In this document: piece by piece, positions 4,541 to 14,606 of the stretch | How positions within the stretch are numbered: position 1 is the stretch's first letter | How the letters are laid out: every line of letters starts with the position of its first letter | Origin: an uncultured Pseudomonadota bacterium | GTDB taxonomy: Bacteria; Pseudomonadota; Alphaproteobacteria; Rs-D84 | Direction: 5' to 3' | DNA: 15,326 nucleotides | Assembly: GCA_946628805.1 (NCBI GenBank) | Contig: CAMOXB010000083.1 | Span: 1 to 15,326, forward strand | The notes under the pieces: model-generated | Seen by the model: the letters and a program-made list of their open reading frames with translations, nothing else | Database searches by the model: none | What the model was told of the DNA's origin: nothing | Program-made: the position numbers and the translations under genes

Positions 4541-4568
4541 AAAAACCACCCAATCGGGTGGTTTTTTT
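4541..4568 (+). terminator. rpsT terminator, also usable from the minus strand
   Basis: Stem CCACCC/GGGTGG (4546-4551 with 4556-4561), loop AATC, preceded by five As and followed by seven Ts. It separates rpsT from the convergent gene ending at 4567; the minus strand gets a shorter T-run. Confidence 0.88.
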
Positions 4569-5736
4569 ATTTACAATTAAGTTTTTCAATTTTGTTATTT
4601 TGGAAAAAATTGTTTTTTAATAAACCATTGATACAGGATTCAACCGTGGAATACTGGCTTCCAGAGATCATCCCCGTTGATCCATCATTCCCGTTCCATG
4701 ACTTTAATGTATAATAACAAGATTGTTCTCTTGTTTTCCAATGAAATTCACGATCCGATAACACACAATCACAACTTTTTGAACCATCGGCATTTATTTT
4801 ATATTTTGCACCAACACTTTCACATATGCTTTGATTTTTTGAAACATCATAACATACAGCAGTTTCCCAATCCCATGCATTTCCTGCATCACGACAATCA
4901 CGTTCATGCTGTGATCCACACTCTTCAATAACAGGATCCCATTGTGCTAATTTCCATTTATTAGGATATTTATCAATCGATTTTTTCACTTCATCGGCAT
5001 ATTCCTTGTCATCATATTCACCAGCAAGATATAATTCATAATAATTCAAACACATAAACTTTTTATTTGCCGAATCCCACGAATACTTAAATCTGCCTTT
5101 CTGTGTACCATGCGGCAAAATACATGTATTATCCTTCCATTCACCTTTCCAATATAAACACGCATCTTTTTCTGTCATATTTGATAAATCAATATTGCGG
5201 TAATCCAAAACATCTGTATTGTATGTTTCTTGTGTAATATTATTAAATACACACTTTGTCTTATCTGCATTTGGTATTTCATTGTCTTTGCATTTTATTA
5301 AATCATTTATACCACCGGATCCCCCAGGACACGCGTAACCAGACACACATGCTTTGCAACCATGCAATTTATCAGCCAAATATTGCCCTGGTGCACAATT
5401 TAATACACATTTTATTTTATCCGAACTTACTATTTCGCTTGGCAAACATTTTTTAATACCTTGATCGTTTAATGATGGGACAAAGAACCCACCGGCACAT
5501 GCATAGTATCGATCTTTACATGAACTACATTTTTTTGCGTTCGCAGGCAAATATTGTCCCGGCAGACATTTTACACTTGATTTTAACAAGCCATTTAAAC
5601 AACATTCCTCAAAATCTGATTTCAAACCAGATTGTATAAAACATTGCTTCATTATATCTTTTGAAATAACAACACTTTTGGCACGCGCCCCAATACACGC
5701 AAATAGAGCCGTTATCATTAATATAATTTTTCGCAT
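4567..5736 (-). CDS. Cysteine-rich exported protein with CxPGQY repeats, 389 aa
   Basis: Signal peptide MRKIILMITALFACIGARA (cleavage about 19). Residues about 58-170 hold two visible tandem cysteine modules of the form C-x-PGQYL...C..C.....C.GG, reminiscent of GCC2/GCC3- or TNFR-like extracellular repeats. The C-terminal half is also cysteine-rich (WKGEWKDNTC, WDWETAVC and FHWKTREQSC segments), so the mature protein is probably disulfide-bonded outside the cytoplasm. Function is unknown; a surface or periplasmic interaction role is inferred. The start at 5736 follows AAAGGA. Expression is probably controlled by the leader and terminator at 5754-5927 directly upstream. Similar repeat proteins seem to be expanded in gut alphaproteobacterial genomes, which is recollection rather than a search result. 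Confidence 0.82.
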   Translation of the reverse strand: MRKIILMITALFACIGARAKSVVISKDIMKQCFIQSGLKSDFEECCLNGLLKSSVKCLPGQYLPANAKKCSSCKDRYYACAGGFFVPSLNDQGIKKCLPSEIVSSDKIKCVLNCAPGQYLADKLHGCKACVSGYACPGGSGGINDLIKCKDNEIPNADKTKCVFNNITQETYNTDVLDYRNIDLSNMTEKDACLYWKGEWKDNTCILPHGTQKGRFKYSWDSANKKFMCLNYYELYLAGEYDDKEYADEVKKSIDKYPNKWKLAQWDPVIEECGSQHERDCRDAGNAWDWETAVCYDVSKNQSICESVGAKYKINADGSKSCDCVLSDREFHWKTREQSCYYTLKSWNGNDGSTGMISGSQYSTVESCINGLLKNNFFQNNKIEKLNCK

Positions 5737-5753: not shown

Positions 5754-5927
5754 CAAAAATACCGCCATAAATTCAGGCGGTTGGAGGCAAGAAACAATTT
5801 GACGTCAAATTGTGTGCATATTCTGTACATTCTACATCCCTCCAACCACAGAGGTTGGAGATTTAACGTCTCTTTCAGACGAACGTCAATCGGGTCTCTT
5901 GACCCCATCAGAAAAACTCTTTCTGAC
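5754..5927 (-). promoter_or_regulatory. Structured leader RNA (copy A) with trp-type attenuator
   Basis: In RNA order on the minus strand: P1 TCAGAAA/TTTCTGA (5926-5908), then TGGGG; P2 GGGTC/GACCC (5905-5892); P3 CGTCT/AGACG (5881-5867); TTAAA. Segment 1 is CTCCAACC (5860-5853), segment 2 GGTTGGAG (5847-5840). A spacer holds the 20-bp palindrome ACAATTTGACGTCAAATTGT. Segment 3 is CTCCAACC (5786-5779), overlapping by 3 nt the terminator stem ACCGCC/GGCGGT (5781-5776 with 5766-5761), which is followed by TATTTTT. Segments 1:2 or 2:3 can pair, not both; 2:3 would disrupt the terminator. The Shine-Dalgarno of the 389-aa gene follows at once. The effector is unknown. Confidence 0.65.
5761..5781 (-). 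terminator. Attenuator terminator of leader copy A
   Basis: Stem ACCGCC/GGCGGT with a 9-nt loop, followed on the minus strand by ATTTTTG. It lies 24 bases before the start codon of the 389-aa gene, so it can only work as a conditional (leader) terminator for that gene. Confidence 0.7.
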
Positions 5928-5934
5928 AAAAAAT

Positions 5935-5963
5935 ATGTTATCAAAAAAAGATTTTTAACACAA
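5935..5963 (-). promoter_or_regulatory. Promoter of leader copy A
   Basis: Minus strand: TTGTGT (5958-5963), 17 bp, TAACAT (5935-5940). The -10 and 17-bp spacing are shared with the copy at 32-60. Predicted start of transcription is near 5927. Confidence 0.5.
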
Positions 5964-5971
5964 TACAAAAA

Positions 5972-5991
5972 ACATCCGCGATTGCGGATGT
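5972..5991 (-). terminator. Terminator ending the secretin transcript and its repeat-rich 3' flank
   Basis: Perfect 8-bp stem ACATCCGC/GCGGATGT with a 4-nt loop, followed on the minus strand by TTTTTTG. There is no other terminator between it and the secretin stop at 6308, so transcripts probably run through the three repeats before ending here. Confidence 0.75.
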
Positions 5992-6078
5992 AAAAAATAA
6001 ATTAGAATGATGAAGATGAGAAGCCGTTGGCAAGCGCAGTGTAGTAAACCTACATAAGCGCGACAACGGCAATCAGAT
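5989..6078. repeat. Palindromic hairpin repeat, copy 1 (exact 90-bp direct repeat)
   Basis: Identical over 90 bp to 6200-6289. The core (6016-6078) folds with outer stem GCCGTTG/CAACGGC (6023-6029 with 6064-6070), inner GCGC/GCGC and apical TGTAG/CTACA. It overlaps the terminator at 5972-5991 by three bases. It lies between the secretin gene and leader copy A. Confidence 0.85.
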
Positions 6079-6125
6079 ATGCAACACAAAACGCGAAAGC
6101 GGTAAAATTAAAGAGAATTGTTCAG
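6079..6125. other. Spacer between repeats 1 and 2
   Basis: AT-rich, no coding signal. One short plus-strand hairpin CGC-GAAA-GCG with a GNRA-type loop is visible. With the repeats and leader A it makes up the 571-bp stretch without a gene (5737-6307). Confidence 0.35.
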
Positions 6126-6188
6126 ATGCGAAGTTGTCGAAGCGTGCAGTGTACAAATGTTACATAAACGCGACGACAACCAGCAGAT
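6126..6188. repeat. Palindromic hairpin repeat, copy 2 (diverged)
   Basis: Aligns without gaps to the 63-nt core of copies 1 and 3 (start ATGNGAAG, end CAGAT, shared AGTGTA and TACATAA). The outer stem is GTTGTCG/CGACAAC (6133-6139 with 6174-6180): three of seven base pairs changed on both sides, pairing kept. Confidence 0.8.
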
Positions 6189-6199
6189 TTTATAACCAC

Positions 6200-6289
6200 T
6201 GTAAAAAATAAATTAGAATGATGAAGATGAGAAGCCGTTGGCAAGCGCAGTGTAGTAAACCTACATAAGCGCGACAACGGCAATCAGAT
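6200..6289. repeat. Palindromic hairpin repeat, copy 3 (identical to copy 1)
   Basis: Exact 90-bp match to 5989-6078. It begins 18 bases beyond the secretin stop codon in the direction of secretin transcription. The exact identity, with a diverged copy between, suggests recent duplication or gene conversion. Confidence 0.85.
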
Positions 6290-6307
6290 TTATTATTATA
6301 ATTTATT

Positions 6308-7906
6308 TTAATTCAGTGGGGCGCCCCAATGTTGTTGAATACTGCGTTCCGCATCCATTGGGCTGACCAATACTTGTGGTGTCAAGATAACAACCAAAAC
6401 TTCACGTGATGCCGCGGTTTCGCTCGAACCAGACAATGCCATAAAGTCTGCATCGCCCAGGCCATAACGTGTATCATCGTTCTTTTGTTTTTCAAATCCT
6501 GATACAACCAACATCTGACCAGATTCCATGATAACTTCCTGCATGAAAGAACGTTCTTCAACTTCTGGTAATTGCAATGTGACTGCACCGATTGTTTGGG
6601 TTGACATTTTCAACAATTCACGAACTGACATTTTGAATAAAAGCAAGATTTTGCCATTTTCCAAAACGTTAGGCAATAATTGCATTGAAAATCCTGTTTC
6701 CAAATCGTCTTGGTCAACGGTACTGGATTCAACTGTTGTAAATGTTCTTGATTCGAAACGTTTGATATATCCGGTTGATTTTGTGTTCGTTACCGGGGCA
6801 ACACGATTATTACGTGTTGTAACACCAACGTTTGTGACTAATGAAACCTTGCCCTGCTTTGCCAATGCTTCGATTAAAGCATTCGATCCCGCGGCGCGTG
6901 CCATTGAACCATTACGGATTTGATTTTCAGAATATGTTCCGGTTAATCCAGTAACCGCATCAGCAACTTTGTTTGATAAAACCGCGACATTCATTGATGA
7001 TGCTTCGGTTGATGCCAAGTTATTCTTTGGATTTGCAACAATATTCAATCCAGATGTCGAATTAATTGCTGCCGCCAAATTCAGACCAAATGCAGATTCA
7101 TTAGACAACGAAACTTGTAAAACCTTTACGTCAATTGTGACCAATTGCGAAAGTCTTTTGTTTTGTTTTGCAATATATTCACCAACACGATTTAATATTG
7201 ATGGCGCCGCCGTCACAGTGATTGTTCCCAAACTGCGCGATACAGTAAATTGTGCATTTTTCGAATTATTTATAATTGAATTAATGGTGGCTTCGACTTC
7301 GTCCCATTCTTTCAGTGTTGATTCCAATGATACCTGGTTACCAGAATCCGTCTGGACAGATGATTGATATGATACGTCTGTCCCCAGCGCATATAATGTA
7401 TATGTGCGCGTTTCGGTTTCATAGAATACAATTGAATCTTTATCATAATACCACAGCAAATCTAAATCCGTTGCGATTTGTGATAACAATCCAGATAATT
7501 TTCCGGTATATGCAACATCCACAGTCTTTTTCAATTTTTCAGCATCAACCTGGCTGTCGATTTTCACAGGAATCCCAGTGATTGAATTAATATCGTTTGC
7601 CAAGACCTGTAATGTGACCGGTTCATTTAATAAAATTGTTATTCCGGTATCTGTTTCAAATTTTGATGGCAAATTATTCTTGTGTTCCAATAATGTTGAT
7701 TTATTTCCCAACCAGACACCTTCGGACATGGAAACAGTATCCCCACTGGTGACCTTGGCACGTGGGTTCTTTGCCATTTCAAAGGCTTCGTATGCGTTAA
7801 CGAAATTATTATCGACCGTTGCAGAAACTTTGGCAGATTCCTTTAATGTGCATCCTGTCAACGCAATCAACAAACCGATAAAACATATATTGAAACGAAT
7901 TTTCAT
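6308..7906 (-). CDS. Type IVb pilus-type secretin, outer-membrane lipoprotein (PilN/BfpB-like)
   Basis: A 532-residue protein. The signal peptide ends in the lipobox LTGC (C19), so it is probably lipid-anchored, as PilN/BfpB-type secretins are. Residues about 85-170 look like an STN-type N-terminal domain (ITILLNEPVTLQVLANDI...GLLSQIATDLDLLWYYD). A ring-building domain with FTVSRSLGTITVTAAP follows. The C-terminal half is the secretin barrel, with VEERSFMQEVIMESGQMLVVSGFEKQKNDD and VLVVILTPQVLV near the end. Secretins form the outer-membrane gate for pili or type II/III secretion substrates. The start at 7906 follows GGGGGAAA. It is 25 bp downstream of the TcpQ-like gene and surely cotranscribed with it. 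No pilin, ATPase or platform gene is present in the window. Confidence 0.88.
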   Translation of the reverse strand: MKIRFNICFIGLLIALTGCTLKESAKVSATVDNNFVNAYEAFEMAKNPRAKVTSGDTVSMSEGVWLGNKSTLLEHKNNLPSKFETDTGITILLNEPVTLQVLANDINSITGIPVKIDSQVDAEKLKKTVDVAYTGKLSGLLSQIATDLDLLWYYDKDSIVFYETETRTYTLYALGTDVSYQSSVQTDSGNQVSLESTLKEWDEVEATINSIINNSKNAQFTVSRSLGTITVTAAPSILNRVGEYIAKQNKRLSQLVTIDVKVLQVSLSNESAFGLNLAAAINSTSGLNIVANPKNNLASTEASSMNVAVLSNKVADAVTGLTGTYSENQIRNGSMARAAGSNALIEALAKQGKVSLVTNVGVTTRNNRVAPVTNTKSTGYIKRFESRTFTTVESSTVDQDDLETGFSMQLLPNVLENGKILLLFKMSVRELLKMSTQTIGAVTLQLPEVEERSFMQEVIMESGQMLVVSGFEKQKNDDTRYGLGDADFMALSGSSETAASREVLVVILTPQVLVSPMDAERSIQQHWGAPLN

Positions 7907-7931
7907 ATTTTCCCCCGTCCCCTGTTCAGGT

Positions 7932-8837
7932 TTATTCTTCTGTGGTTGAAACGACAACTACGCGGTTTCCTTTGTAAAATTTAGCATATGGAATCGGTGT
8001 TGCACGTTCAAAATTACGAATTAATGCCGATGCTACATCAACAAAGCGACCTTTGAATACGGCACTGGCTTCGATTGGATATTCGCGCGATGTTGTCCAT
8101 ACCAAATCCCAGCCTTCTTTGTCGCACCATGATTGTAATACCTGGCGCAAAGTTTGACCGTTTGTAACAACCCACGAACGAACCTGGTCTTGAACAACCG
8201 CTGGGGCTTCTTCATCAACATATTCGTTTATCGCGATATCTGTATCCGAACCATTGTTTGTTGCAATTGAATTGCATGTCTTTTCTGCCGCAAAACCCGC
8301 ACGTTGTGCAAACACCGCATAAGAATCCGACGATTTATTACAATTTTTATGACCACTGCGCGACATCGCCAATACACTGCCACCATCATCTTCCATCATT
8401 TCACGACGCATTAATGGCATTTCGGCATCATTTGTGCATTCATAATCAAAACCAACCGGGATTTGATTGCCATTTGAAACATCTGGACCACCAGACCAAC
8501 CGGCGCCATGTGTGACAATATTATTTTCAATCACAAGACCCGAACCAATCTTTGAAACAATTTTTGTTCCATCATTTCCGCATCCATTACCCGAACATGC
8601 AACCGTTACATCCGCTTCAGATCCAGGTGCCGGCCACACATCAGATTCCATTTCAACGTATTCCATTTCTTCATATTCAGGTGCAACGTATTCGCGATTT
8701 ACATCTTCGGCAACATATTCTTGTTCACCAGAATCATAAAAAACTTCGGATGTGACAACCTGTTGCAGTCCATCGTTTGCCGATGCCATACCGATAAAAC
8801 CCGCACATACCATAAATGCACATACTTTTTGGAACAT
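7932..8837 (-). CDS. TcpQ/PilL-like pilus assembly protein, 301 aa
   Basis: Signal peptide of about 20 residues (ends GMASA-ND). It is followed by an E/Y-rich acidic segment (35-66) with repeated EYV motifs, then a glycine/cysteine region. The C-terminal domain (about 219-298) matches the TcpQ pattern: WVVTNGQTLRQVLQSWCDKEGWDLVW, then FKGRFVDVASALIRNF and a final YKGNRVVVV. In Vibrio TCP and related type IVb systems such proteins stabilise the secretin; the next gene here encodes that secretin, which supports the call. The start at 8837 follows AAGGAAAG, and a strong promoter lies just upstream. The long N-terminal part resembles nothing I can name. Confidence 0.8.
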   Translation of the reverse strand: MFQKVCAFMVCAGFIGMASANDGLQQVVTSEVFYDSGEQEYVAEDVNREYVAPEYEEMEYVEMESDVWPAPGSEADVTVACSGNGCGNDGTKIVSKIGSGLVIENNIVTHGAGWSGGPDVSNGNQIPVGFDYECTNDAEMPLMRREMMEDDGGSVLAMSRSGHKNCNKSSDSYAVFAQRAGFAAEKTCNSIATNNGSDTDIAINEYVDEEAPAVVQDQVRSWVVTNGQTLRQVLQSWCDKEGWDLVWTTSREYPIEASAVFKGRFVDVASALIRNFERATPIPYAKFYKGNRVVVVSTTEE

Positions 8838-8870
8838 AATTCTTTCCTTTCCTTAATATTATTATATCTG

Positions 8871-8899
8871 ATTATAACAATTTGACCGAATCTGTGCAA
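8871..8899 (-). promoter_or_regulatory. Promoter of the TcpQ-secretin operon
   Basis: Minus strand: TTGCAC (8894-8899), exactly 17 bp, TATAAT (8871-8876). The -10 lies 33 bases before the start codon. This is one of the best-matching promoters in the window. Confidence 0.7.
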
Positions 8900-8954
8900 G
8901 ACTTAAAATTACAAAAAATATAATACATAAAAAATCGCACGAATCGGTAAAACG

Positions 8955-8963
8955 TGTTATACT
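8955..8963 (+). promoter_or_regulatory. Extended -10 promoter of the suf-containing cluster
   Basis: TGTTATACT is an extended -10 element (TGN-TATACT), 22 bases before the first start codon. There is no good -35. No Fur, RirA or IscR site is obvious nearby. Confidence 0.45.
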
Positions 8964-8985
8964 GGTATGCAAAAGGAATCATAAA

Positions 8986-9528
8986 ATGGAAAATACGATT
9001 ATATTAATTTTTGTCATCGTTTGCGCGATATTTAGTGTTTGTTCGCTGTTTCTTTCAATAAAAACTGGCAAGAACATAAAAAACATTAATAAAACACTGA
9101 CATATCAATATAACCTGTTGGTAAAAATTCAAACCATATTGAAAAATAAATTTTCAGTTAACGAAACCACAGACAAAGCCGAAATTATATACCAAGATTT
9201 GTTGCAAGACCTGATTCCAATCATGGCAACAATGGACGTAATGCCACGTAATACATCGGAACACCCGCTTTGGCGTGCGTTGGGTGGCATAATGGACGAA
9301 TATGCAAAAAATCCGTTTGTTCTGGAAAAATTGCGTCGTGCAATAAAACTGGATTCGAATATCGCACATAATGTATCGCATTACCTTAATCGCGCAAATA
9401 TGTTTTTACAACATATGGCATCGACTGATTCGGACGGTATTTTATCAACAACATTTACAGACGGTCTTTTGGGACAATCATTAACATTTTTTGCCCAGGC
9501 ACAAACATTGGCAAACAGCGATAAATGA
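8986..9528 (+). CDS. Unknown membrane-anchored protein, 180 aa, first gene of the suf cluster
   Basis: One N-terminal transmembrane segment (about residues 4-26: IILIFVIVCAIFSVCSLFLSI), then a basic, asparagine-rich stretch and a helical, mostly soluble domain with no cysteines after the membrane segment. The start follows AAAGGAA. Its stop codon overlaps the sufB start (ATGA at 9525-9528), so the two are translationally coupled, which hints at a shared function. I recognise no domain. The topology (short N-terminal anchor, cytoplasmic or periplasmic body) cannot be settled from sequence. It is not a SufA, SufU, SufT or IscR homologue by eye. Confidence 0.8.
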   Translation: MENTIILIFVIVCAIFSVCSLFLSIKTGKNIKNINKTLTYQYNLLVKIQTILKNKFSVNETTDKAEIIYQDLLQDLIPIMATMDVMPRNTSEHPLWRALGGIMDEYAKNPFVLEKLRRAIKLDSNIAHNVSHYLNRANMFLQHMASTDSDGILSTTFTDGLLGQSLTFFAQAQTLANSDK

Positions 9529-10865
9529 CAGCATTAAACGAAAAACTTGTTCGGGAAATATCAAATCTGCGTGGCGAACCAGATTGGATGTTGCAATGGC
9601 GTTTAGATGCATTAAAAAAATGGTTAAAAATGCGTGAACCACATTGGGCTGAAATTGACTATGAACCGATTAATTATGACGCACTAAATTACTATAACAC
9701 ACCGGAAAAAATCGATAATTCAAAATTAAAAGAAACATATGATAAAATGGGATTGCCGGAAAGTGAACAGCGCGCCCTTTTGGGTATGGCAACCGATACT
9801 GTTATTGACAGCCAATCCGTCCATACCTCATATAGTGATGAATTAAAAAAATTTGGGATAATATTTTTACCTTTATCCACAGCCGTTATTGAATATCCAG
9901 AATTAGTTAAACAATATATCGGCACAATCGTTCCAAACGACGATAATTTCTTTGCAGCATTAAACGCGGCGGTATTTTCAGACGGAACATTTGTATATAT
10001 ACCAAAGAACGTAAAATGCCCGATTGATTTAGCCAGTTATTTTCGAATTGAAACTGCGAAAATCGGACAATTTGAACGCACTCTTATTATCGCCGACGAA
10101 GGTTCAACCCTTTCGTATATGGAAGGATGCAGCGCCCCACGCCGTCCAAATCATCAATTACACAGTGGCGTCGTTGAAATCGTCGTTCATAAAAATGCAC
10201 ACGTAAAATATTCGACTGTTCAAAACTGGTATGCGGGGGATTTTGCCGTATACAACGATTTGCCAACAAATAAAAACGGTATATTAAATTTCGTTACCAA
10301 ACGTGGAAAATGTTTTGAAAATGCATCGCTGGATTGGACCCAGGTTGAAATTGGTTCAGCAATGACATGGAAATATCCGTCTACAATTTTATATGGCGAT
10401 AATTCACAAAGTGATTTTTATTCGCTTTCCATAACACGCGGTGCACAAATGGCGGACACAGGAACAAAGATGATTCATATTGGCAACAATACAAAATCAA
10501 ATATTGTTTCATATGGCGTCGCATCAGATTATTCACGACAAACATTTCGCAGTCTGGTTTCTTTTACCGGTGTAAACGGAAAAAACGCATGCAAATGCGA
10601 CAGCCGTATCATTGGCAATAATGCGACCGCAAACACAATTCCAACCGTTATTCATAGCAATGCAAAAAACGAACAATCACACGAAGCGACCACCGGCGCA
10701 ATCGACCCAGACGCTTTGCGATTCTTGATGCAAAGCGGTATTGACGAAGACGAAGCAACCGCATTAATAATTGGCGCAAATGCATCACCCATTATTTCAC
10801 GATTACCAATGGAATTCTTGGTTGAATCAAAACAATTAATACAAATGGCACTAAAAAAAGAATAA
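9525..10865 (+). CDS. sufB: Fe-S cluster scaffold protein SufB
   Basis: A 446-residue scaffold of the SUF system; with SufC (and usually SufD) it assembles Fe-S clusters from persulfide sulfur and iron in the cytoplasm. Close matches to E. coli SufB are VFSDGTFVYIPKNVKCPIDL (150-169), YMEGCSAPRR (198-207), HKNAHVKYSTVQNW (222-235), ADTGTKMIHIGNNTKS (310-325) and HEATTGAI (386-393). C358 in CKCDSRIIG corresponds to E. coli Cys405 and E387 to Glu434, both needed for cluster assembly, so the scaffold chemistry looks intact. The E. coli N-terminal CxxCxxxC-like motif is not seen. It overlaps the upstream gene by ATGA; sufC starts 3 bases after its stop. Confidence 0.96.
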   Translation: MTALNEKLVREISNLRGEPDWMLQWRLDALKKWLKMREPHWAEIDYEPINYDALNYYNTPEKIDNSKLKETYDKMGLPESEQRALLGMATDTVIDSQSVHTSYSDELKKFGIIFLPLSTAVIEYPELVKQYIGTIVPNDDNFFAALNAAVFSDGTFVYIPKNVKCPIDLASYFRIETAKIGQFERTLIIADEGSTLSYMEGCSAPRRPNHQLHSGVVEIVVHKNAHVKYSTVQNWYAGDFAVYNDLPTNKNGILNFVTKRGKCFENASLDWTQVEIGSAMTWKYPSTILYGDNSQSDFYSLSITRGAQMADTGTKMIHIGNNTKSNIVSYGVASDYSRQTFRSLVSFTGVNGKNACKCDSRIIGNNATANTIPTVIHSNAKNEQSHEATTGAIDPDALRFLMQSGIDEDEATALIIGANASPIISRLPMEFLVESKQLIQMALKKE

Positions 10866-10868
10866 AAA

Positions 10869-11546
10869 ATGTTAGAAATAAAAAATCTTTGTGTATCAAT
10901 GAACGAAAAACCATTATTAGAAAATATAAATATGGTTGTACGTGACGGCGCACGGCATCGTCTGGCTGGACATAATGGTTCGGGCAAATCAACATTGGTT
11001 AACACAATCGCAGGCGATAATTCTTACCATATCGACAGCGGTCAAATAATATTCAACGGCACCGACATAACACACGAAAATGCAACAACACGTGCGTTGA
11101 TGGGGATATTCTTGGGCGCACAAAACGTCCCAGAAATCCCAGGACTTACATTATTATCCTTCTTGAAACATTCGTGCATTGCGCATACACATTTTGAAAC
11201 AGGCAAAGATTTATCAATGGGCGAATTTCTGGAACGTGTTGAAAAAGCCTGTGCAAAACTAGACATACCAAAAGAATGGCTTAATCGTTATGTAAACGTT
11301 GGGTTTTCAGGGGGCGAACGAAAACGCATTATGTTACTTCGTTTGATTTTAACACAACCGAAATTGGCAATACTGGACGAACCAGATTCGGGTGCAGATG
11401 CGGTCGTTCAAAAACAAATCGCCACAATAATAAGTGAAATGAAAGACACTGCGTTTTTATTCATATCACACCAAGACGCATTTTCATCTTCAATTGATAT
11501 AAGTGAAACAACCACTTTGGATAATGGCAAAATTGTGATAAAATAA
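10869..11546 (+). CDS. sufC: SUF system ATPase SufC
   Basis: A 225-residue ABC-type ATPase that drives conformational change in the SufB scaffold. It has Walker A GHNGSGKS (34-41), the Q-loop in GAQNVPEIPG (83-92, the SufC-specific EIPG), signature FSGGERKR (146-153), Walker B LAILDEPDSG (166-175) and H-loop His201 in ISHQ. It is about 25 residues shorter than E. coli SufC. The usual DSGLDID after Walker B is DSGADAV here. It begins 3 bases after sufB with no separate strong Shine-Dalgarno, so it is probably coupled. No sufD, sufS, sufE/U or sufA follows; the next genes encode unrelated membrane proteins. Confidence 0.95.
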   Translation: MLEIKNLCVSMNEKPLLENINMVVRDGARHRLAGHNGSGKSTLVNTIAGDNSYHIDSGQIIFNGTDITHENATTRALMGIFLGAQNVPEIPGLTLLSFLKHSCIAHTHFETGKDLSMGEFLERVEKACAKLDIPKEWLNRYVNVGFSGGERKRIMLLRLILTQPKLAILDEPDSGADAVVQKQIATIISEMKDTAFLFISHQDAFSSSIDISETTTLDNGKIVIK

Positions 11547-11570
11547 GAAAGACAACAAAAGGATACAAAT

Positions 11571-12398
11571 ATGAAAAATCAATTAAAACAATGGCTTTTT
11601 AACAAACCGATATTATTTGCATCGGTATTTTTTGCAATGACAATTATTTTGGGGCTGGTATATTCATTGTTTCAAACGTTTTTAAGTTTTGAATCAATAT
11701 TGCCAATATATTTCATATTTGCATTATCGTTTATATGCGCAACATATTATATGATAAAGAAATTACCACACGATAAAATGTATCGTAATGATTTTATTGC
11801 TATCAATAACGGCGCATCAATTATATCAATTGCAACATCATTAATTGCAATATTATCAATCGGATTGGCAGGCCCAATGATTCAACGAAAAATGATGATG
11901 ATGTATTTATTACACCAATCTGCGTTTTTAATTATATTTATCGCGATTATATTGTTGTCTTTATATATCCTTGGGGTTGCAGTTGCAAATATATATGCAA
12001 AATATAAACGCGCAACAACAATGGGTATTAATTCATGGCGTGTAATATTGTCAATGCCATTTGGATTTTTATTAATGTGGACACCGGGATATTTAATCGA
12101 AGAAAAAGGAAAAAAACCAAATCTGGTTATAAAATCAAATTGGTATAATCGTTTTAATAATTGGGTTTTATCGAATTTTTCAAATGTGTTGTTTATGTTC
12201 TTGTTCCTGACATTTGCACGCTGTGTTATATCTGGATTACCAACATTAATATTAACGACTGCATTATTGGTTCTTTATACATTATGGTATGTAAAACACA
12301 AATCAGATTTTGTAAAAAATATAAACAACGGATACGCATTAACCGCAGTTGGTATTAATATCGCTGTATTGGTCGCCGTCCTTTTAACCATAGGATAA
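11571..12398 (+). CDS. Polytopic membrane protein of unknown function, 275 aa
   Basis: Starts after AAAGGATAC, 24 bases downstream of sufC, and ends 4 bases before the transporter gene, so it is probably in the same transcript. Six to eight hydrophobic segments are visible: about residues 13-35, 43-61, 82-103, 115-140, 157-173, 202-220, 223-241 and 254-274. There is an N-in basic start and a central amphipathic loop (EEKGKKPNLVIKSNWYNRFNNW). A methionine-rich patch RKMMMM is notable. There are no charged motifs of known transporter families and I do not recognise a domain. A link to Fe-S assembly or to the neighbouring transporter is only positional. Confidence 0.8.
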   Translation: MKNQLKQWLFNKPILFASVFFAMTIILGLVYSLFQTFLSFESILPIYFIFALSFICATYYMIKKLPHDKMYRNDFIAINNGASIISIATSLIAILSIGLAGPMIQRKMMMMYLLHQSAFLIIFIAIILLSLYILGVAVANIYAKYKRATTMGINSWRVILSMPFGFLLMWTPGYLIEEKGKKPNLVIKSNWYNRFNNWVLSNFSNVLFMFLFLTFARCVISGLPTLILTTALLVLYTLWYVKHKSDFVKNINNGYALTAVGINIAVLVAVLLTIG

Positions 12399-12402
12399 AA
12401 GT

Positions 12403-13446
12403 ATGCATAACCTGGTATTTTTCATCGCATTAATATTCATTTTATGGATTGGCCGTTCGATATTTATACCATTGCTTTTCGCAACATTTTTGTGGTATTT
12501 ATTGAACGCGATTTCTACATATTATCGACGTATTATGCCATGTAACAAATCCGAAAAATGCAGTGTATATTTACACAAATTTTATAATATTTTATCACCG
12601 ATTTTATCGCTTTTATCGGTTGGTGGTGTTATATATCTGTTTTCAACCCAGGTACGCCCAATGTTATCAGAATTATATAACGCAACCCCGATATTACAGC
12701 AAAAATTACTGGAATTTTCGGAATTTATTTCACGTAAAATCGGTATTGGAATTGATTTGGATTTAATACCTAACCTGCCCCAGATTGCCGGGTACATAGG
12801 TTCATCATTGGCGGGCCTTGCAACATCAACCGGTATGGTTTTGATATATTTAATATTTATGTTTGTTGAACAAAGTTCGTTTAACAAAAAAATCGATGCC
12901 ATGCCATTAAGCCGTATAAAGTCAAAAAAACTTCGTTTCATATTAAACAGTATTGATGAAAATATGAAAAAATATTTATTTACAAAAACATTTATTTCCG
13001 CCGCGACTGGAATATGTGCATATATATTATTACATTTTATCGGTCTGGAATACGCATCGGTTTGGGCGTTTATAATATTCGTGTTAAATTATATTCCAAC
13101 AATCGGTTCGATATTTGCATGCGGTCTGCCAATCGCATACGCGTTAATCAGTGGCGACACATGGCATTTACCGGTCTTTACTGCAATTTCATTAATTGGT
13201 CTGGAAATATTATTTGGAAATATCTTAGACCCAAAATTAACAGGAAAGACATTGAACATCTCTACATTAGCAATATTAATAAACCTGGTATTTTGGGGTA
13301 TGATTTGGGGCCCAGCCGGAATGTTTTTCAGTGTTCCAATTTTGGTTGGCATATACGTCACAACCGCCCAGTTTTCATCGACACGTTGGATTGCAACATT
13401 GCTTTCAACCGATGGTAAAATCCCAGATGAAACCCAAAACGATTAA
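12403..13446 (+). CDS. AI-2E family (PerM/YdbI-type) membrane transporter
   Basis: A 347-residue integral membrane protein. N-terminal hydrophobic segments are followed by a central soluble-looking helical region (about 75-130), then further membrane segments. The family hallmark LNYIPTIGSIFACGLPI (about 227-243) is clear. So is the C-terminal pattern DPKLTGKTLNISTLAILINLVFWGMIWGPAGMFFSVPI, which matches the usual D-P-x-x-x-G-x-x-L...W...G..G..L..P. Members have been linked to autoinducer-2 export, Na+/H+ antiport and other efflux, so the substrate cannot be named. The start at 12403 lies four bases after the previous stop, with GGATAAAAGT as a likely overlapping Shine-Dalgarno. It is the last gene of the cluster, closed by a terminator. 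Confidence 0.9.
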   Translation: MHNLVFFIALIFILWIGRSIFIPLLFATFLWYLLNAISTYYRRIMPCNKSEKCSVYLHKFYNILSPILSLLSVGGVIYLFSTQVRPMLSELYNATPILQQKLLEFSEFISRKIGIGIDLDLIPNLPQIAGYIGSSLAGLATSTGMVLIYLIFMFVEQSSFNKKIDAMPLSRIKSKKLRFILNSIDENMKKYLFTKTFISAATGICAYILLHFIGLEYASVWAFIIFVLNYIPTIGSIFACGLPIAYALISGDTWHLPVFTAISLIGLEILFGNILDPKLTGKTLNISTLAILINLVFWGMIWGPAGMFFSVPILVGIYVTTAQFSSTRWIATLLSTDGKIPDETQND

Positions 13447-13452
13447 AAAAAT

Positions 13453-13479
13453 AAAAATGCCATCAAATATGGCATTTTT
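13453..13479. terminator. Bidirectional terminator between convergent genes
   Basis: 11-bp stem AAAAATGCCAT/ATGGCATTTTT (13453-13463 with 13469-13479) with loop CAAAT and T-runs on both strands. It serves the transporter gene (plus) and the LamG-like gene (minus). Confidence 0.85.
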
Positions 13480-13482
13480 ATT

Positions 13483-14367
13483 TTAATCAATTCCATAAAT
13501 AAAATTTCCTGTTCCAGAATTCCCATAAAATTTTTGTTCAACAATATCCCACATACCGTTTGATGGAACAACATAATCACCAATAACCATACCTGCTGGC
13601 ACAGGCACAAAATGCCGAACAAGATTACCATTATCATAAATAAAGGTTTCATAGAAACGCACACCGCTTTTCGCAATATGTATATCCGTATAAGAATACG
13701 ATCCAAATAATAGCACAGAAGACGAAGCCTGAAAATCTGAATACGAATGATTAACTTGGAATATATTTACATAATTCATATCGAAAACTGTTATAATATT
13801 TTTGTTTTTATCTATTAATACTTTTTCATTTGTCCTGCATCGTGGTCCGGTTACTACAGAACTATTATAATCGTCTCTATACACTTTTTCATTTGTACAT
13901 AAAAACATAAAACTTTTATTGGCATAACCTCTGCGTTCGCCAAAAACATTAGTACCCGTTAAATCTTTTTGATATACCGTTGCAACAATACGCGTATCTT
14001 GATTTGGCATAAAACCTGTATCTATATACTGAGTCCCTGTACTTTCCAGGTACAAGCAGGGATTTGCACCAATCAAATTTGCGTTTTCATCAAATTCGTA
14101 TAAATCTATTGTATCATCAAAGACATAATATTCTTTGCCTTCATAACTTATATGTAATTCACGTTCTGAATCAGAATTTATTTTAAACGGACATGTTGAC
14201 ATATTGGCATAAAAAACATCATCTCCTATCTTAACATTTAATGATGGGATTGTATTTTTTTCAGAATTTAAATATAAATAATCATCACCAATATGTAAAA
14301 TATGTTCATGGGCACCCAAGACTGTGAACGGAATAAATAAAAATATTATTATCAGCATTTTTGACAT
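13483..14367 (-). CDS. Exported LamG/concanavalin-like protein, 294 aa
   Basis: The start at 14367 has GGAGG eight bases upstream; a TTG at 14379 lies inside that Shine-Dalgarno and is not the start. Signal peptide MSKMLIIIFLFIPFTVLGA. An N-terminal domain of about 85 residues has one cysteine. Then comes a LamG-like beta-sandwich region opening with LYLESTGTQYIDTGF and closing with FVPVPAGMVIGDYVVPSNGMWDIVEQKFYGNSGTGNF. This signature is frequent in predicted surface proteins of gut bacteria. The ligand is unknown; glycan or host-surface binding is inferred. It is preceded by leader copy B with a terminator, so it probably shares regulation with the 389-aa cysteine-rich gene even though the proteins are unrelated. 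Confidence 0.82.
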   Translation of the reverse strand: MSKMLIIIFLFIPFTVLGAHEHILHIGDDYLYLNSEKNTIPSLNVKIGDDVFYANMSTCPFKINSDSERELHISYEGKEYYVFDDTIDLYEFDENANLIGANPCLYLESTGTQYIDTGFMPNQDTRIVATVYQKDLTGTNVFGERRGYANKSFMFLCTNEKVYRDDYNSSVVTGPRCRTNEKVLIDKNKNIITVFDMNYVNIFQVNHSYSDFQASSSVLLFGSYSYTDIHIAKSGVRFYETFIYDNGNLVRHFVPVPAGMVIGDYVVPSNGMWDIVEQKFYGNSGTGNFIYGID

Positions 14368-14385
14368 TAGTTCCTCCAAATCGCA

Positions 14386-14419
14386 AAAATAAAAAACCGC
14401 ATCAAAAATTGAAGCGGTT
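14386..14419 (-). terminator. Attenuator terminator of leader copy B
   Basis: Stem AACCGC/GCGGTT (14395-14400 with 14414-14419), extended by inner TCAA/TTGA, followed on the minus strand by TTTTTTATTTTT. It ends 8 bases before GGAGG of the gene it precedes. Confidence 0.78.
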
Positions 14420-14571
14420 GGAGTTCGTTAATCCGTCAAAAGCTCGGACATGCTGATTTTGCATAATGCATTATTCACATACTCCAACCAACACGATTGG
14501 AGTTTTTAATGTCTGCACAGACAGCTTTCGATAGAGGTAACGACACCCCAACACCAGGCTTTTCTGATGTC
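14386..14571 (-). promoter_or_regulatory. Structured leader RNA (copy B) with trp-type attenuator
   Basis: Same order as copy A on the minus strand: P1 CATCAG/CTGGTG (14569-14552), TTGGGG; P2 GGGGT/ACCTC (14549-14534); P3 TGTCT/AGACA (14523-14510); TTAAA. Segment 1 is ACTCCAATC (14503-14495) and segment 2 GGTTGGAGT (14489-14481). A spacer holds the palindrome ATAATGCATTAT. Segment 3, ACTCCAACC (14424-14416), overlaps the terminator stem AACCGC/GCGGTT by 4 nt. From TGGGG to TTAAA the distance is 41 nt in both copies, although most bases differ. Pairing 2:3 and the terminator exclude each other. GGAGG and the start codon of the 294-aa gene follow. Confidence 0.65.
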
Positions 14572-14577
14572 ATTTAT

Positions 14578-14606
14578 ATAATATATTAAACATGAATTTA
14601 ATGCAA
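14578..14606 (-). promoter_or_regulatory. Promoter of leader copy B, -35 inside the end of ruvX
   Basis: Minus strand: TTGCAT (14601-14606), exactly 17 bp, TATTAT (14578-14583). The -35 is formed by the last two sense codons of ruvX (Leu-His). Predicted start of transcription is near 14571, giving a leader of about the same length as copy A. Confidence 0.6.

Follow-up and report, generated by a model that had tools for sequence, protein, structure and literature searches.

A strongly covarying attenuator-type leader RNA with the layout of phage C4 antisense RNA, repeated before genes of the order Rs-D84

Two genes of an uncultured alphaproteobacterium of the order Rs-D84 are each preceded by a leader of the same build, which raises the question of what kind of RNA these leaders encode and how it might act on the genes behind them. 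Both leaders lie on the minus strand of a stretch of 15,326 nucleotides (nt), hereafter the window, which spans positions 1 to 15,326 of contig CAMOXB010000083.1 (GenBank assembly GCA_946628805.1); the genome is a 652-kb assembly, 74% complete. A sequence-only reading of the window had proposed an apparently undescribed attenuator that controls two unrelated genes for exported proteins. On comparison and folding of many copies, the leader proves to be real and widespread, an attenuator-type RNA with strong covariation. Its layout is that of the antisense RNA C4 of phage P1.

Parts, helices and switch logic of the leader

The two leaders were found where the sequence-only reading had placed them, with their parts in the order that it gave and with every stem sequence that it named. 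The distance from TGGGG to TTAAA is 41 nt in each, and the 17-nt promoter spacing was likewise confirmed in both, for promoters that are putative and of weak consensus. The parts are given below in window positions, with matches to a covariance model of the leader (R1).

5777 to 5927, minus strand: leader 1 RNA, from P1 to segment 3; R1 match in its own genome at E 4.3e-34; fold z -5.4
5935 to 5963, minus strand: putative promoter before leader 1, TTGTGT and TAACAT spaced by 17 nt; weak by consensus and not picked up by a strict scan, part of a family-wide promoter-like signal
5908 to 5926, minus strand: P1 hairpin of leader 1; stem letters located
5892 to 5905, minus strand: P2 hairpin of leader 1; its loop region is X5 (a1-like), 5894-5901, CAAGAGAC
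5882 to 5889, minus strand: Y5 (b1-like) of leader 1, TTGACGTT; complementary to Y3
5867 to 5881, minus strand: P3 hairpin of leader 1; stem letters located, covariation over 48 copies
5839 to 5861, minus strand: 1:2 hairpin of leader 1; segment 1 at 5853-5861, segment 2 at 5839-5847
5815 to 5837, minus strand: P5 of leader 1 with the conserved GAAT..GAAT loop; stem letters located, covariation over 48 copies
5788 to 5812, minus strand: antisense part of leader 1; P6 with Y3 (b'-like) at 5799-5806, X3 (a'-like) at 5788-5795
5754 to 5787, minus strand: segment 3 and terminator-like hairpin of leader 1; segment 3 at 5779-5787, overlapped by hairpin 3:4
5776-5781 with 5761-5766, minus strand: hairpin 3:4 of leader 1; T-rich tail at 5754-5760
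14414 to 14571, minus strand: leader 2 RNA, a divergent copy, extending from P1 to segment 3; R1 match at E 2.2e-9; fold z -6.6
14578 to 14606, minus strand: putative promoter of leader 2, TTGCAT, 17 nt, TATTAT; missed by a strict scan
14552 to 14569, minus strand: P1 hairpin of leader 2; stem letters located
14534 to 14549, minus strand: P2 hairpin of leader 2; X5 is TCGTTA, 14538-14543
14523 to 14531, minus strand: Y5 of leader 2, TCGAAAGCT; complementary to Y3
14510 to 14523, minus strand: P3 hairpin of leader 2; stem letters located
14481 to 14503, minus strand: 1:2 hairpin of leader 2; segment 1 at 14495-14503, segment 2 at 14481-14489
14450 to 14480, minus strand: P5 region of leader 2, with an additional inner hairpin
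14425 to 14448, minus strand: antisense part of leader 2; P6 stem TCCG/CGGA replaces CAAT/ATTG, Y3 at 14436-14444 in the loop, X3 at 14425-14430
14385 to 14424, minus strand: segment 3, terminator-like hairpin and T-rich tail of leader 2; segment 3 at 14416-14424, hairpin 14414-14419 with 14395-14400

What had been called a palindromic spacer is present and is really a hairpin, P6, whose surroundings hold the 3' sides of two long-range helices, X and Y, that the earlier list of elements had overlooked. In helix X the P2 loop (X5) pairs with the bases directly before segment 3 (X3), and in helix Y the stretch after P2 (Y5) pairs with the P6 loop (Y3). Complementarity in both helices was found in 16/16 full-length copies of the own genome, among which X letters were common to two pairs of copies and all 16 Y strings differed. 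Over 48 copies (alignment A5), 92.6% of cells were paired versus 39-46% for slid controls, and two-sided changes numbered 485 versus 138 in shuffles. Both sides had changed in 35 of 46 pairs, including 7/7 pairs of P1, and the covariation score reached 0.567, whereas shuffles gave 0.155 and slid partners 0.06-0.10. The fold z of neither window leader was equalled by any of 200 dinucleotide shuffles.

Alignments A5 (48), A6 (99) and A7 (21) together hold 168 aligned matches, and 161 were counted after seven rows had been dropped (the degenerate A6 rows L093, twice, L107, L141 and L142, the contig-cut L033 and the reverse-strand match L196). Fold predictions cover 158 of these 161 copies; tests of swapped X/Y partners and of a second target cover 160. 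In 145 of 160 leaders (own genome 15/16, relatives 111/124, distant copies 19/20) the leader's own two-helix X/Y pairing scored above that with any of 15 swapped partners.

Pairing of segment 2 with segment 3 over at least 7 pairs is possible in 159 of the 161 copies, pairing with segment 1 over at least 5 pairs in 160, and both in 158. Segment 2 occurs as 34 different strings, 19 without GTTGGAG, and several copies have segments 1, 2 and 3 replaced in concert (CTCCTGACC/GGTCAGGAG/CTCCTGACC in L081, CCTCTCGC/GGCGAGAGG/CCTCTCGCC in L190), a three-way change that is expected if segment 2 has to pair with each of the other two. A terminator-like hairpin (a stem of at least 5 pairs, then a T-rich tail) was present in 147/161 copies versus 35/456 control windows, and it begins within segment 3 in 146 of these 147. 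Comparison of the copies thus gives good support to what the sequence-only reading had proposed, an attenuator whose 1:2, 2:3 and 3:4 pairings exclude one another, and the leader probably decides whether the downstream gene is read or cut short.

Among 158 predicted lowest-energy folds, X/Y and 1:2 each appeared in 154 and hairpin 3:4 in 149, and the median cost of forcing 2:3 pairing was 13 kcal/mol. With the terminator left out, 2:3 was predicted in 126/158 copies when X5/Y5 were held unpaired versus 7/158 when they were free. A pairing of GGGG with CCTCC of segment 3 in the predicted folds was not taken as a defining helix because in several relatives, by eye, GGGG and the P2 strand that it pairs with change together. 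Upstream of the leader, a promoter-like pair scoring at least 9/12 was found in 100/141 copies versus 12.6% of shuffled upstream stretches, and in 118 of this set of 141 the pair ends 6 or 7 nt before the leader. A leader peptide was rejected, the conserved GAATATATTGAATAA having no conserved start codon across copies (by eye).

Distribution of the leader and the genes behind it

A search of the own genome for CTCCAACCGC gave 17 places, against 0 for the same string read backwards. A leader is visible at 17/17 of these places, one of them truncated by a contig end. R1 gave 17 matches in this genome, namely 16 of the 17 CTCCAACCGC places and one new copy cut by a contig end, so that the genome holds at least 18 copies. 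In a set of 99 genomes R1 matched 60: 55/59 of the own genus (the own genome included), 5/18 from the rest of the order and 0/22 from other orders. A second covariance model, R2, built on 48 copies, matched 171/190 genomes of the order Rs-D84 and 18 of 385 genomes sampled from Alphaproteobacteria, 14 of these 18 lying outside Rs-D84. Copy numbers are lower bounds in these searches, in which 31 (R1, 99 genomes), 16 (R2, order) or 8 (R2, class) candidates were scored per genome. A single-contig genome of the same genus (1,001,484 bp) had 24 copies at E <=0.01, 12 per strand, with 150 of 366 candidates scored. Further copies before genes of related genomes and strong covariation, two of the findings that the sequence-only reading had proposed to look for, were both obtained.

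A pattern scan of named genomes gave at least 112 stretches; the sources stated are animal gut or rumen, others state none, and among the matches listed some records are labelled Rickettsiales bacterium. Enterousia, of the order Rs-D84, has genomes of about 1 Mb or smaller, and a symbiotic or parasitic life has been proposed for it (PMC12306168). Three leader copies lie on IMG/VR contigs, two of which have the same 316-aa gene behind the leader. One viral-contig copy (L175:1250-13164) was seen downstream of phage tail sheath, tape measure and tail genes and a DNA-methyltransferase-like gene, and perhaps sits at a prophage edge. A single DNA similarity search of phages with a 53-nt piece gave no match.

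Tandem leaders were seen in L044:1501-2128 (three in about 630 nt), L107, L126, L093, L141 and L142; several have their own promoter-like and terminator-like parts, some are degenerate, and there is little or no gene between them. In one own-genome copy (L010:347-498) the usual segment-1 string CTCCAAC is changed to AGATACATC. Palindromic-looking repeats (CTCGCTGTAG..., CCCCCTCC...GGGGGAG) stand between leader and gene in the own-genome copies L008, L014 and L017.

The genes behind the two window leaders are the following.

4567 to 5736, minus strand: gene 1, behind leader 1; product of 389 aa, signal-peptide-like start, no Pfam match
13483 to 14367, minus strand: gene 2, after leader 2; 294 aa from ATG, signal-peptide-like start, no Pfam match (the 298-aa reading from TTG at 14379 was scanned)

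An open reading frame (ORF) starts no more than 130 nt downstream of 140/161 leaders, with a median distance of 46 nt for the own genome (13/16), 48 in relatives (105/122), 39 in viral contigs (3/3) and 40 in distant copies (19/20). No such start was found within 130 nt in the other 21 of the 161, for some owing to a contig end. By a crude rule, signal-peptide-like starts were found in 12/13 of these genes in the own genome, 50/105 in relatives, 2/3 in viral contigs and 7/19 in distant copies, against a background of 174/887 ORFs of the same loci, leader genes included. The assignment of the leader to exported-protein genes fits both window genes and most leader genes of the own genome, and does not extend to all targets: in relatives these also include small helix-turn-helix-like proteins, a GmrSD restriction enzyme and a glycosyltransferase, and one viral-contig leader precedes an ABC transporter. 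Between the two leader genes, at 6308-8837 of the window, are proteins with Secretin and TcpQ domains, which suggests a pilus or secretion locus.

Kinship with phage C4 and sRNA-Xcc1

Transcription attenuators of the trp-leader type and those of plasmid antisense attenuation use mutually exclusive hairpins that end in a terminator before the gene. The leaders differ from them in that they show no conserved leader peptide and in that the complementarity lies inside one transcript. An Rfam scan gave no match at either window leader, T-box, SAM and other known riboswitches included; the sequence-only reading had reported none, and these identities were dropped. Its description of the leader as undescribed stands with respect to Rfam at the window copies, but the layout is that of phage C4 and the 3' half matches the sRNA-Xcc1 model in some relatives.

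The likeness to phage P1 lies in the order of the parts. P1 C4 (RF01695) with its a1-b1 element (RF03163) presents a1, b1, a segment-1-like complement and then an outer stem that, like 2:3 of the leaders, encloses two hairpins, of which the second has b' in its loop, and then a' immediately ahead of the 3' strand; the P1 record has putative a1, putative b1, C4, a2, b2 and icd in that order. A feature of C4, an a1-b1-type part complementary to b'-a' in a stem-closed two-hairpin module, is present in the leaders. The two differ in that P1 has its similar hairpin between b1 and the segment-1-like part (by eye), whereas the leaders carry a terminator-like hairpin after segment 3, fused to it in place of a2-b2, and in that the targets of the leaders are bacterial surface and other genes. 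A second target a2-b2 at the ribosome site of the gene was not found above background: by a stricter rule it occurred in 0/15 own, 7/107 relative and 1/19 distant copies (swapped background 2.9%, 4.0% and 6.4%), and by a looser rule in 0/16, 10/121 and 2/20.

C4 blocks the ant operon (PMC8198154) and is cut by RNase P (PMC5320573), and many C4-like RNAs of Acinetobacter have variable a' letters on a constant scaffold (PMC5320573). The GG that starts segment 2 is no more than compatible with C4-type processing, in which RNase P acts on the outer stem's 5' strand. Both c4 and c4-a1b1 are listed in Weinberg 2010 (PMC2864571), and in Rfam outputs they belong to clan CL00128, RF02221 being without a clan. 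The isrK model was seen to match the a1-b1 region of phage P1 (L270:28231-28312; E 6e-6, under the gathering score), and isrK may be an a1-b1-type element.

In relatives, the model of sRNA-Xcc1 (RF02221), 87 nt long, appears to correspond to the leader from segment 2 to segment 3, with the 2:3 stem, P5-like and P6-like hairpins and X3. By the title of a 2011 paper, sRNA-Xcc1 is reportedly a trans-acting RNA. It is described as an 88-nt RNA of Xanthomonas (PMC2996969) that is located there in integron cassettes (PMC12444791), and a paper on Xylella vesicles predicts plant targets of its homologues (PMC12189769). An integron attC site was rejected for the leaders because the copies lie scattered and bring an upstream part and a terminator-like hairpin of their own.

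Among distant leaders, permissive scans with Rfam returned RF02221 below threshold at four loci, each match spanning segment 2 to segment 3. RF02221 matched 64/96 genomes of Rs-D84 at E <=0.01, three above the gathering score, and the own genome once (E 0.003, under the cut-off). Some of these matches coincide with R1 or R2 leaders (in the genomes G099, G056 and G004), and R2 and RF02221 fell on the same place in 4/30 fetched loci, L264 (R2 E 1.7e-20) and L245, L242 and L249 (R2 E 1e-5 to 6e-4). Most of these 30 loci (L240-L269, e.g. L241:1501-1592, L245:1501-1591) appear by eye to be a second leader class in the same bacteria, with GGTCGGGG/CCCCGACC-like 2:3 stems, an a1-b1-like element of their own, a terminator-like hairpin and, in many, exported-protein genes. 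Their own X/Y beat all swaps in 16/30 (stricter rule 15/30), and a second X5-Y5 copy was found in 8/30 (swapped 10.1%) or 7/28 (swapped 7.3%), near-duplicate loci included.

Across the phylum RF02221 matched 57/398 genomes, and 30 loci from other genomes (L210-L239) were examined. An upstream X5/Y5-like part is visible by eye in many of the 30; own X/Y beat all swaps in 13/30 (stricter 11/30), a weaker result against a GC-rich, noisy background. A second X5-Y5 copy lies downstream in 11/29 (swapped 3.8%) or, by a looser rule, in 15/30 (swapped 5.9%), which sets these loci apart from the leaders, where none exceeded background. At these loci the second copy was seen at the ribosome site in a third to a half, and the downstream genes scanned are of antirepressor or SymE type. 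Ten downstream proteins, picked by eye from the 30 loci, three of their ORFs starting 109-224 nt past the RNA, matched Bro-N (four, one below the Pfam cut-off), P22_AR_N (two), Rha (two), KilA-N (one) and SymE (one), that is nine of antirepressor type and one SymE.

In the literature covered in part on C4, sRNA-Xcc1, Enterousia, Rs-D84 and structured RNAs of Alphaproteobacteria, no account of the leader was found and sRNA-Xcc1 was not described as a C4-like element; such coverage does not prove absence. We do not file the leaders as members of C4 or sRNA-Xcc1; they are a new variant within the C4 / sRNA-Xcc1 kind of antisense RNA, and may share an origin with phage C4 and sRNA-Xcc1.

Proposed mechanism and alternative explanations

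We consider it probable, from comparison and predicted folds, that each leader is a self-contained C4-like antisense attenuator that is off by default. Transcription would begin at or just upstream of P1. On the growing transcript Y3, in P6, and X3, behind P6, would fold back onto Y5 and X5, beside and in the P2 loop; this closed X/Y fold would hold segment 1 on segment 2 and free segment 3, so that hairpin 3:4 forms and transcription stops. Were X5/Y5 occupied or unavailable, segment 2 would pair with segment 3 as soon as the latter is made, and this C4-like fold would weaken hairpin 3:4 so that the gene is read. The switch would then act through transcription termination, be off unless disturbed, and be thrown by capture of X5/Y5. 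RNase P may also cut the RNA at that GG with which segment 2 begins, as published for C4. The C4-like attenuator is backed by the covarying helices, the competition of 1:2 with 2:3 and the overlapping terminator-like hairpin, and further by the X/Y pairs, the close downstream gene and an element order equal to that of phage P1 C4.

Several results weigh against this mechanism. The pair counts of A5 lean towards the model to which it was fitted, and the weakest helices, P2 (78.5% of cells paired) and P5 (68.2%), include an outermost P2 pair that is mostly unpaired. With stricter placement of X and Y, 125/160 leaders and not 145 beat all swaps, and by duplex energy 117/160 did. The 2:3 pairing of L114 has only 6 bp, and segment 1 of L068 is only partial. 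With the terminator present and X5/Y5 blocked, the 2:3 fold was predicted in only 43/158 copies, and therefore the outcome would depend on timing; the fold energies take no account of pseudoknots or kinetics. A strict promoter scan flagged neither window promoter, and a terminator scan for loops of up to 8 nt flagged neither hairpin, the loop of leader 1 being too long for it; judged by simple consensus, promoters and terminators alike are weak. The Rfam models for C4 (RF01695), c4-a1b1 and sRNA-Xcc1 did not match the window copies and R2 did not match the 30 phage-type loci L210-L239, so that kinship with C4 rests on layout; the C4 models also matched none of 20 further loci scanned and do match phage P1, the positive control.

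The letters of X and Y are mostly private to a copy. Mean pairwise identity among own-genome copies was 0.45 for X5 and 0.38 for Y5, compared with 0.78-0.80 for P1, 0.97 for P3 and 0.91-1.00 for segments 1-3. Between leaders with products at least 80% identical it was 0.95 for X and 0.91 for Y (seven non-independent pairs, some automatic X/Y assignments being doubtful), at 40-80% it was 0.66 and 0.53 (58 pairs), and with unrelated products 0.54 and 0.38. The claim that a common signal switches surface proteins on is thus unsupported as it was worded. Because the X and Y letters differ between copies, they suggest locus-specific recognition, as in C4; alternatively the differences may be drift with compensation, or a shared input may act via the constant scaffold. 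An exact search of the own assembly found the X5-Y5 sites of leaders 1 and 2 only at the leaders themselves, and trans targets of these two leaders in the own genome were rejected.

An extension of the C4-like attenuator would make the leaders a genome-wide set of self-addressed feedback switches, each holding the on/off state of its own surface gene; we regard this as rather unlikely. The RNA of a leader that has been read through, or cut at segment 2, would adopt the C4 fold and expose Y3-X3, which would capture X5-Y5 on the following transcript, from that locus and no other, and keep the gene on, the private X/Y pair being an address that prevents cross-talk. If true, a host-dependent gut bacterium would be using the logic of phage immunity to vary its surface.

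A metabolite riboswitch, in which a single ligand is bound in a pocket made of the P1 loop, GGGG, P3 and the P5 loop GAATATATTGAATA while X and Y are drifted structural helices, would explain the constant scaffold with its many copies per genome, the P5 loop that is conserved and has counterparts in distant copies, and the default-off logic; drift with compensation would likewise leave unrelated copies with X/Y identity at random level. We think it unlikely nonetheless, since the target genes are mixed, the letters of P1 and P3 vary between species (P3 seems missing in some copies, by eye) and the C4 layout accounts for X/Y without a ligand. It is quite unlikely that a single RNA-binding protein, recognising conserved P5 or P1 elements and stabilising 2:3, acts as an antiterminator. 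In its favour, few unpaired parts are as conserved as the P5 internal loop, and by eye sRNA-Xcc1 loci also have a similar AAUA..GAAUA; such a protein is compatible with the C4-like attenuator and would be its trigger.

That the leader is a stand-alone trans-acting small RNA, with an incidental downstream gene and a hairpin that merely forms its 3' end, is very doubtful. The published 88-nt form of sRNA-Xcc1 (PMC2996969), the 21/161 copies in which no ORF start was found within 130 nt (some at contig ends) and the tandem arrangement of some copies speak for it; the tight spacing to the start codon, the conserved competition of 1:2 with 2:3 and the uniqueness of both window X5-Y5 sites in the assembly (exact matches, genome 74% complete) speak against it. 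DNA repeats that gene duplication or mobile elements have multiplied and that are kept without an RNA function would fit the several downstream genes that look like paralogues (by eye) and the three copies on IMG/VR contigs, one near phage tail genes. Covariation already contradicts this explanation, with compensatory changes throughout, segments 1-3 changed in concert and downstream genes that are unrelated, and we give it almost no credence.

The C4-like parts around many of the 30 sRNA-Xcc1 loci of other genomes suggest a function for sRNA-Xcc1, and for its homologues with predicted plant targets a local target deserves priority over those. If the proposed mechanism is true, these bacteria, with genomes of at most about 1 Mb, would have rebuilt a phage-type antisense module into an attenuator acting in cis and put it to use many times over.

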